From contig NZ_VIRL01000016.1 of NCBI RefSeq assembly GCF_006874465.1, positions 124,001 through 188,000 on the forward strand: a stretch of 64,000 nt of DNA, in the 5' to 3' direction. The notes under the pieces were generated by a model. It was not told the DNA's origin, searched no databases, and was given only the letters and a program-made list of their open reading frames with translations. Shown here piece after piece: positions 51,915 through 52,507 of this stretch. Source of the stretch: Microbispora bryophytorum. Lineage in GTDB: Bacteria > Actinomycetota > Actinomycetes > Streptosporangiales > Streptosporangiaceae. The stretch's first letter is position 1. Each line of letters begins with the position of its first letter. Both the position numbers and the translations under genes were made by a program.

Positions 51915-52483
51915 CGTTCCCGGGAACGGTGGGCGCGGACCTTGTGGCGGTTGCCGCACCGCTCCATCGAGCACCAGCGCCTGCTGCCCGGGCGTGAGGT
52001 GTCGACGAAGATGAGCGCGCAGTTGTCCCCCGCGCACTCCCGCACGCGGTCCGCGTACGGGCCGGTGAACAGCTCGATCGCGTCTCTCGCGACGGTCGCG
52101 ATCACCTGGCTCCCGGTCGCGGGGGCGACCCGGGATCGCAGCCCGTCCGCCGTCATCACGGGCGTCAGCGGTGGCGCCGCCGCCGCGTGGTTGACCGCGT
52201 CCACATCCGCCGGTCTCGGCGTGCGGCCATGGACGCGGTCGCCGGCCAGCCCCCACAGGGCGGTGCGCAGGGCTTTGGCGCGGGTGAGCTCGTCGGCCGT
52301 CGTGTCCACTTCCTCCAGGCCGAGCCGGGACACGGCGGCCCACCGGGCGAGGTCGGCCGGCTCGTGCAGCGTCTCGTAGTGGGCGTAGACCCCCACGCCG
52401 CCGCTCACGAGGAACTCCAGGCAGAGGGTGCCCGGATCGAACCGGAAGGAGACCCCGTCACGCGGGTGTAGCGTCAGGCTCAT
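51911..52483 (-). CDS. CGNR zinc-finger (ABATE-domain) protein
   Basis: 190 residues. N-terminal ABATE-like helical domain (FRFDPGTLCLEFLVSGG; ADLARWAAVSRLGLEEVDTTADELTRAKALRTALWGLA) and a C-terminal zinc finger RECAGDNCALIFVDTSRPGSRRWCSMERCGNRHKVRAHR containing the CGNR signature. The family is thought to be stress-responsive transcription factors. The ATG at 52483 is part of a 27-bp palindrome shared with the divergent VOC gene. Confidence 0.9.
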   Translation of the reverse strand: MSLTLHPRDGVSFRFDPGTLCLEFLVSGGVGVYAHYETLHEPADLARWAAVSRLGLEEVDTTADELTRAKALRTALWGLAGDRVHGRTPRPADVDAVNHAAAAPPLTPVMTADGLRSRVAPATGSQVIATVARDAIELFTGPYADRVRECAGDNCALIFVDTSRPGSRRWCSMERCGNRHKVRAHRSRER

Positions 52484-52507
52484 GTAACCACTATAAAGGG
52501 TTACATG
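52481..52507. promoter_or_regulatory. Bidirectional leaderless promoter inside a 27-bp palindrome
   Basis: CATGTAACC and GGTTACATG flank ACTATAAAG. The outer CAT and ATG are the start codons of the two divergent genes. Plus-strand TATAAA (52492-52497) ends 7 nt before the rightward ATG; minus-strand TATAGT (52495-52490) ends 6 nt before the leftward ATG. The two -10 boxes overlap on a shared TATA. Confidence 0.65.

Follow-up and report, generated by a model that had tools for sequence, protein, structure and literature searches.

A palindrome spanning two divergent start codons is a candidate operator of a CGNR zinc-finger regulator in Microbispora bryophytorum

Introduction

The nearest leaderless divergent precedent that we found for the locus described here is LysG/LysE of Mycobacterium tuberculosis, a divergent pair whose promoters are reported to overlap around an inverted repeat and to include one leaderless lysE transcript (PMC5648196). 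Work on Escherichia coli from the Grainger laboratory describes bidirectional promoters with overlapping -10 elements, at which the two polymerases are mutually exclusive and start points 18, 10 or 23 bp apart are common (PMC12825309). Both TANNNT elements and leaderless starts are common in Streptomyces coelicolor, where 80.4% of start sites are reported with TANNNT and 21.0% of primary starts to give leaderless mRNAs (PMC4895711). For the ABATE/zf-CGNR family, sequence-specific DNA binding has been proposed, and Jann_2411 is described as probably dimeric, its treble-clef finger having been put forward as the DNA-binding part (PMC2954205). Its PDB entry, 3h0n, labelled an uncharacterised protein, is the only one there that is credibly related in sequence to the CGNR protein considered here (E 0.00021).

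Here we describe a 27-bp palindrome in a 64,000-nucleotide stretch of the M. bryophytorum genome (the window) that lies between a CGNR regulator gene and a divergent VOC gene. Among the titles listed for CGNR and ABATE in the open-licence literature, most concern other subjects and none a CGNR operator, and the subscription literature may contain more; the combination of glyoxalase, zinc finger and leaderless returned only an unrelated review in the open-licence literature.

Results

The features of the locus are collected in Table 1. The regulator carries PF07336 followed by PF11706, each well above its curated cut-off, and its translation contains ECAGDNC and WCSMERCGNR, which together hold four zinc-binding cysteines ending in the CGNR motif; the roles of these cysteines are taken from the published ABATE/CGNR structure (PMC2954205). 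NCBIfam has no family for either the CGNR or the VOC protein, and relatives of the CGNR protein at E ≤ 0.001 were present in 194/200 genomes of the window's family. Read by eye, the next in-frame ATG, GTG or TTG is codon 26 of the CGNR gene, whose ABATE match begins at residue 18, and codon 29 of the VOC gene, whose Glyoxalase_6 match begins at residue 7. Because these codons already fall inside the respective domains, neither start plausibly moves inward, which makes implausible the inward shift of the CGNR start that the preliminary description had named as a danger to its reading.

Table 1. Predicted features around the CGNR/VOC intergenic palindrome (window positions)
Feature	Position	Strand	Remarks
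CGNR/ABATE zinc-finger regulator gene, 190 aa	51911..52483	-	ABATE PF07336 E=1.1e-24; zf-CGNR PF11706 E=7.9e-21
VOC (Glyoxalase_6) gene, 147 aa	52505..52948	+	Glyoxalase_6 PF18029 E=1.2e-28
CGNR ATG	52483-52481	-	
VOC ATG	52505-52507	+	
Gap between the two ATGs	52484-52504		21 bp
27-bp palindrome CATGTAACC-ACTATAAAG-GGTTACATG	52481..52507	.	Putative operator and promoter core common to both genes; includes the two start codons
Left operator half-site GTAACC (candidate)	52484..52489	.	GnnACC-N9-GGTnnC in relatives
Right operator half-site GGTTAC (candidate)	52499..52504	.	GnnACC-N9-GGTnnC in relatives
CGNR-direction -10 TATAGT	52490..52495	-	Ends 6 nt before CGNR ATG; TANNNT there in 60/65, 25/26
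VOC-direction imperfect -10 TATAAA	52492..52497	+	Ends 7 nt before VOC ATG; TANNNT there in 0/65, 1/26
Site of VOC-direction -35	52468..52473	+	18-bp spacer; within CGNR codons 4-6; GTAGCG here, TTGCnn in many relatives

Both 9-bp arms of the palindrome are perfect. Its ends are the two start codons, as the preliminary description had claimed, and the pattern recurs in relatives. No match to it arose in 100 dinucleotide shuffles of the window. A whole-genome search found the perfect GTAACC-N9-GGTTAC once in the 7.85-Mb genome, together with three further sites that are one base off and have G+C-rich spacers. The neighbouring response regulator shares 97.5% identity with that of three Microbispora records, so that the genome looks like one of this genus.

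Searching 257 Gb of genomes for CATGTAACC-N9-GGTTACATG (18 fixed bases) returned 77 genome stretches, against about 4 expected at uniform base composition. The reading frames that open at the palindrome's own ATGs are a CGNR and a VOC frame, one at each end, in 61/77; at least one end is CGNR in 69/77 and VOC in 67/77. By tblastn anywhere in the stretch (n=77), CGNR was matched in 71, VOC in 69 and both in 65, with CGNR alone in 6, VOC alone in 4 and neither in 2, one of which (L046) stops just inside a CGNR gene. Some stretches, including ones titled Leifsonia, Glaciihabitans, Stenotrophomonas and an alphaproteobacterial MAG, keep CGNR at the palindrome without VOC, which suggests that the motif follows CGNR. 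Two exact matches from outside actinobacteria, titled Stenotrophomonas maltophilia and an alphaproteobacterial MAG, likewise sit exactly at CGNR starts.

Several stretches depart from this arrangement. L031:337-363, titled Leptolinea, is an exact palindrome in a stretch with no CGNR or VOC match, and L017 has its CGNR gene at a distance of 1.8 kb from the palindrome. L020, L053, L065 and L077 have the exact palindrome at a VOC start with no CGNR match in the stretch; the adjoining reading frames that we tested gave no Pfam CGNR match.

Loci were also chosen by protein, with the motif ignored. Similarity to the window CGNR protein within the same family of genomes gave 89 loci (29 besides the window's own and 60 more; contig-end rows and partial matches were skipped), and a motif was called where GnnACC-N9-GGTnnC had all eight core bases and at least 5/6 arm pairs between -120 and +60 of the start. 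It stands at the CGNR start in 50/89 loci, and in 22/50 after removal of relatives at ≥75% identity, compared with 0/89 in two control stretches, 0-2 at other spacers from 3 to 15, and 0.42 in shuffles (maximum 3 in 40). Because these 89 loci had themselves supplied the motif that was then counted in them, a second set was tested, comprising 24 new loci minus 3 from the window's family: the motif was present in 12/21, with 0 at every other spacer and 0 in the control, and in six further loci an N9 site stands there in imperfect form. Some of these 21 loci may be Streptomyces, a genus already present among the exact-pattern stretches. An in-frame start codon directly follows the operator in 39/57 and 15/16 of the loci with a core site.

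These controls, the recurrence and the fixed spacer leave very little room for a chance palindrome or an RNA hairpin without regulatory role, which we regard as scarcely credible. RNA from this region can form a stem; a 100-nt fold is not unusually stable (z -1.36; 18/200 shuffles fold as well), and transcripts that begin at either ATG would lack the stem.

Sampling the phylum by Pfam family, regardless of similarity (29 + 60 loci), gave a sharper partition. Of these 89 zf-CGNR loci, 11 encode a protein related to the window CGNR (tblastn E ≤ 1e-20); the motif occurs in 7/89, and each of the seven belongs to the 11, with 0 in the remaining 78. L182 and L222, which are among the 11, duplicate genes L272 and L273 from the 21-locus set, and a few others recur too. 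Since the motif sits at the regulator start and only in relatives of this protein (7/11 vs 0/78), the CGNR protein probably binds the palindrome, so that this protein, which the preliminary description had suggested as a possible symmetric regulator, now appears, on grounds of conservation, to be a likely binder.

A motif universal to all zf-CGNR genes was considered and rejected, as only 2/29 phylum loci and 5/60 class loci carry it in the 500-bp stretch. Where the finger pattern was matched, the motif was found in 2/25 phylum and 1/43 class loci (the pattern failed in 4/29 and 17/60, which were left out), and generic palindromes with 6-bp arms in the class set showed no clear peak at spacer 9 (15/43 vs 9.4 in shuffles, other spacers similar). 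The stretches of eight zf-CGNR paralogues of this genome hold no such site. One paralogue in the same genome, L087, has an inverted repeat, TCGAACCG-N7-CGGTTCGA, about 41 bp before its estimated start, which may be that paralogue's own operator.

Several observations run counter to the operator reading: VOC and palindrome occur without CGNR in 4/77 stretches, L031 has neither gene, most zf-CGNR genes lack the motif, and in many loci the arms match only in part. The first of these would be expected if a different regulator bound the palindrome and CGNR were merely one of its targets, and the window does contain a neighbouring MarR gene, whose product is a predicted DNA-binding protein. We nevertheless consider this explanation very improbable, given that MarR is found in 0/77 stretches (the LuxR-type gene in 6/77), that the motif occurs at CGNR starts with different partners and among zf-CGNR loci is confined to relatives of the window CGNR protein, and that a residue of the CGNR finger itself, position 182, is second among 190 columns in its association with half-site class. 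This last point is a lead only, in that most of the top columns lie in ABATE and phylogeny confounds the comparison.

The half-sites often vary together, as GTAACC, GAAACC, GACACC, GGAACC, GTTACC or GTCACC, each with its complement, which is the pattern expected from a diverging DNA-binding protein; many loci have unmatched arms, for example GACACC with GGTTTC or GTAACC with GGTGTC. Ten relatives from one genus-level group (L279-L288) combine a left GTAACC with a right GGTTTC, GGTGTC or AGTTTC, and in these the start codon is overlapped by GCAA (ATGCAA or GTGCAA) rather than having it 10 bp deeper in the gene. Seven loci (L111, L112, L114, L119, L120, L122 and L124), CGNR relatives with no VOC match in the stretch, have two tandem N9 operators 26-28 bp apart upstream of CGNR; in the distal copy the CGNR-direction -10 is without its last T, and in some loci that copy keeps TATAACT toward the partner. 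L098, from the same genus and likewise with no VOC match, has three GTAACC/GGTTAC half-sites in 15-bp steps before CGNR and two possible CGNR ATG starts 15 nt apart.

To compare the two promoter directions we used the 65 exact loci that could be oriented out of 78 (77 plus the window; 13 fell outside the orientation rule) and the 26 CGNR/VOC pairs found among 110 protein-chosen loci. TANNNT stands exactly 6 nt before the CGNR start in 60/65 exact loci (TATAGT 29, TATATT 21, TATACT 10), vs 0/65 at the leaderless distance in the VOC direction, where the strand mostly reads TATAA. The pairs behave alike, with TANNNT on the CGNR strand in 25/26 and on the VOC strand in 1/26; their arms are exactly GTAACC/GGTTAC in 15/26, in 24 the CGNR gene begins right after the operator, and the distance from operator to VOC start is at most one base in 19 and tens of bases in 7/26 (L099, L104, L105, L107, L123, L133 and L139). 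Only one strand can be favored because the spacer is odd, the AnTATAAnT core placing TATAnT correctly on a single strand. The CGNR start looks leaderless, with TANNNT 6-7 nt before it and no room for a ribosome site, an arrangement that is ordinary for the group given how common TANNNT and leaderless starts are in S. coelicolor. The VOC side of the window has no TANNNT at that distance, since its TATAAA lacks the last T, and AAGGG lies 4 nt before the window's VOC ATG.

The overlapping -10 boxes of the preliminary description, each 6-7 nt from an ATG, therefore hold at the CGNR side and fail as a TANNNT at the VOC side; its leaderless starts in both directions are borne out for CGNR by conservation and for VOC only by the geometry of the window, given the displaced starts in other pairs; and the symmetry that it proposed is not supported by the strand counts. 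A palindrome acting as a symmetric leaderless two-way promoter, with one shared -10 used equally both ways, would account for the abutment of both ATGs on the element, for predicted starts 22 bp apart, near the 23-bp class of E. coli (PMC12825309), and for the TATAAT on the VOC strand of L273. Against the near absence of TANNNT on the VOC strand (0/65 and 1/26) and the VOC starts off the operator in 7/26 pairs, we judge it improbable.

The VOC direction has a second candidate element, lodged in the coding sequence of the regulator. Across 65 loci no -35 match reached 5 matching bases in either direction; no CGNR -35 was found inside the VOC gene, where the best match averages 2.48 vs 2.83 in shuffles, and the best match in the VOC direction averages 3.51 vs 2.76. 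Codon usage was examined in 114 CGNR genes starting at the operator (60 from the exact search and 54 protein-chosen). The codon-5 alanine is GCA in 50/54, compared with 4.6% of alanines beyond codon 12. After dereplication at 80%, CAA occupies nucleotides 13-15 (A of ATG = 0) in 28/60 genes, no other offset between 3 and 59 has it in more than 3/60, and the third base of codon 5 is A in 34/60 vs 4.6% beyond codon 30. Third-base A is also frequent in these dereplicated genes at codons 7 (20/60) and 10 (17/60), the background being 4.6%.

Read on the VOC strand, the codon-5 CAA is a TTG exactly 18 bp from TATAAn. A TTG at this distance occurs in 17/26 protein-chosen pairs and in 34 of the 65 exact loci, where other spacers from 14 to 22 give 0-6 and 31/65 lack it. 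The nine pairs without it are six of the window's genus (GTAGCG), L142, whose operator is shortened, L275, whose CGNR start has moved, and L273, which has the only consensus -10 on the VOC strand among the 26 pairs. At L275 the CGNR gene no longer starts at the operator, and AGGAGG with a TTG codon follows instead. Clades with a non-GTAACC operator keep CAA at its offset in 11/18 rows, with L120 and L125 matched at a distal operator, and this conservation alongside other half-sites makes the codon-5 element more likely a -35 than a third CGNR half-site, a candidate we set aside as less likely. The element may also be a downstream translation aid for the leaderless mRNA.

With a TTG -35 at 18 bp in the VOC direction, a two-way promoter is still likely in many relatives; the window's own clade lacks that TTG. 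The window's VOC direction reads TATAAA and GTAGCG, so that both the TANNNT -10 and the TTG -35 are missing, and VOC may here be weakly expressed, activated instead of repressed, or started elsewhere. This bears on the possibility that CGNR binds the palindrome and activates VOC, or flips the polymerase, in the manner of MerR or SoxR while repressing only itself. A perfect CGNR -10 beside an imperfect VOC -10 is what would be expected if VOC needs help, the TTG -35 of many relatives lies at 18-bp spacing, and for SoxR, activation of a bidirectional promoter in one direction together with a block in the opposite one has been reported (PMC12825309). However, MerR proteins are described there as binding between the -35 and -10, whereas this operator lies on the VOC -10 and start point, and 18 bp is close to the 17 bp that the same source calls optimal. 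We regard activation as unlikely, though less so than the other alternatives.

Discussion

The locus is a divergent regulator/target pair with an inverted repeat over both predicted promoters, and we propose, with a probability of roughly 0.7, that the palindrome is a CGNR operator lying over both core promoters through which CGNR would repress its own gene and VOC. From sequence, conservation, spacing and strand asymmetry, we infer the following mechanism. A CGNR dimer, a geometry that is likely by analogy with Jann_2411, would grip the half-sites GTAACC and GGTTAC and cover the -10 region and start points of both genes, so that both are repressed. The ABATE domain would sense a signal, perhaps a substrate of the VOC enzyme, and CGNR would be released. 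CGNR would be made from a leaderless transcript with the perfect -10 TATAGT, and VOC, in smaller or more dependent amounts, from the same AT-rich core read the opposite way with an imperfect -10; in many relatives, the -35 TTG in CGNR codons 5-6 would help the VOC promoter.

A fuller version of this proposal is put forward tentatively, as somewhat less likely than not. According to it, the 21-bp element is at once the CGNR operator, two opposed leaderless promoter cores and, at its edges, both start codons; the odd spacer gives one strand a good -10, the other promoter is completed by a -35 in the codons of the regulator, CGNR sets both level and direction, and a half-site code, GnnACC, drifts between CGNR clades.

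The novelty appears to lie in two candidates, an operator with a half-site code and fixed spacing for a CGNR subfamily, and an asymmetric two-way promoter inside a perfect palindrome. With a candidate site in hand whose 9-bp spacer is fixed and whose half-sites are clade-specific, a poorly known CGNR subfamily becomes directly testable, and the asymmetry within a perfect palindrome, combined with a putative -35 behind a rare codon, offers a natural system in about 50 bp in which operator symmetry, promoter direction and coding constraint have to be fitted together.

Each of the closest systems shares part of this design. Jann_2411 has the same ABATE and CGNR zinc-finger domains as the window protein; the part of its description consulted here reports no DNA site (PMC2954205), whereas here there is a candidate operator with half-sites and spacing. 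Prokaryotic bidirectional promoters direct opposed transcripts from overlapping -10s, and the predicted starts here are 22 bp apart; in the present locus, however, the core and the two start codons fall together with a perfect candidate operator palindrome, and only one strand has a consensus -10. The leaderless genes of Streptomyces have a TANNNT -10 and transcripts from near the start codon (PMC4895711), features that the CGNR gene is predicted to share, with the difference that here an operator abuts the start codon. LysG/LysE resembles the predicted arrangement most closely in having a regulator and its target diverge around an inverted repeat, and differs in its 108-bp intergenic region and in its LysR-type activator, which belongs to an unrelated protein family (PMC5648196).
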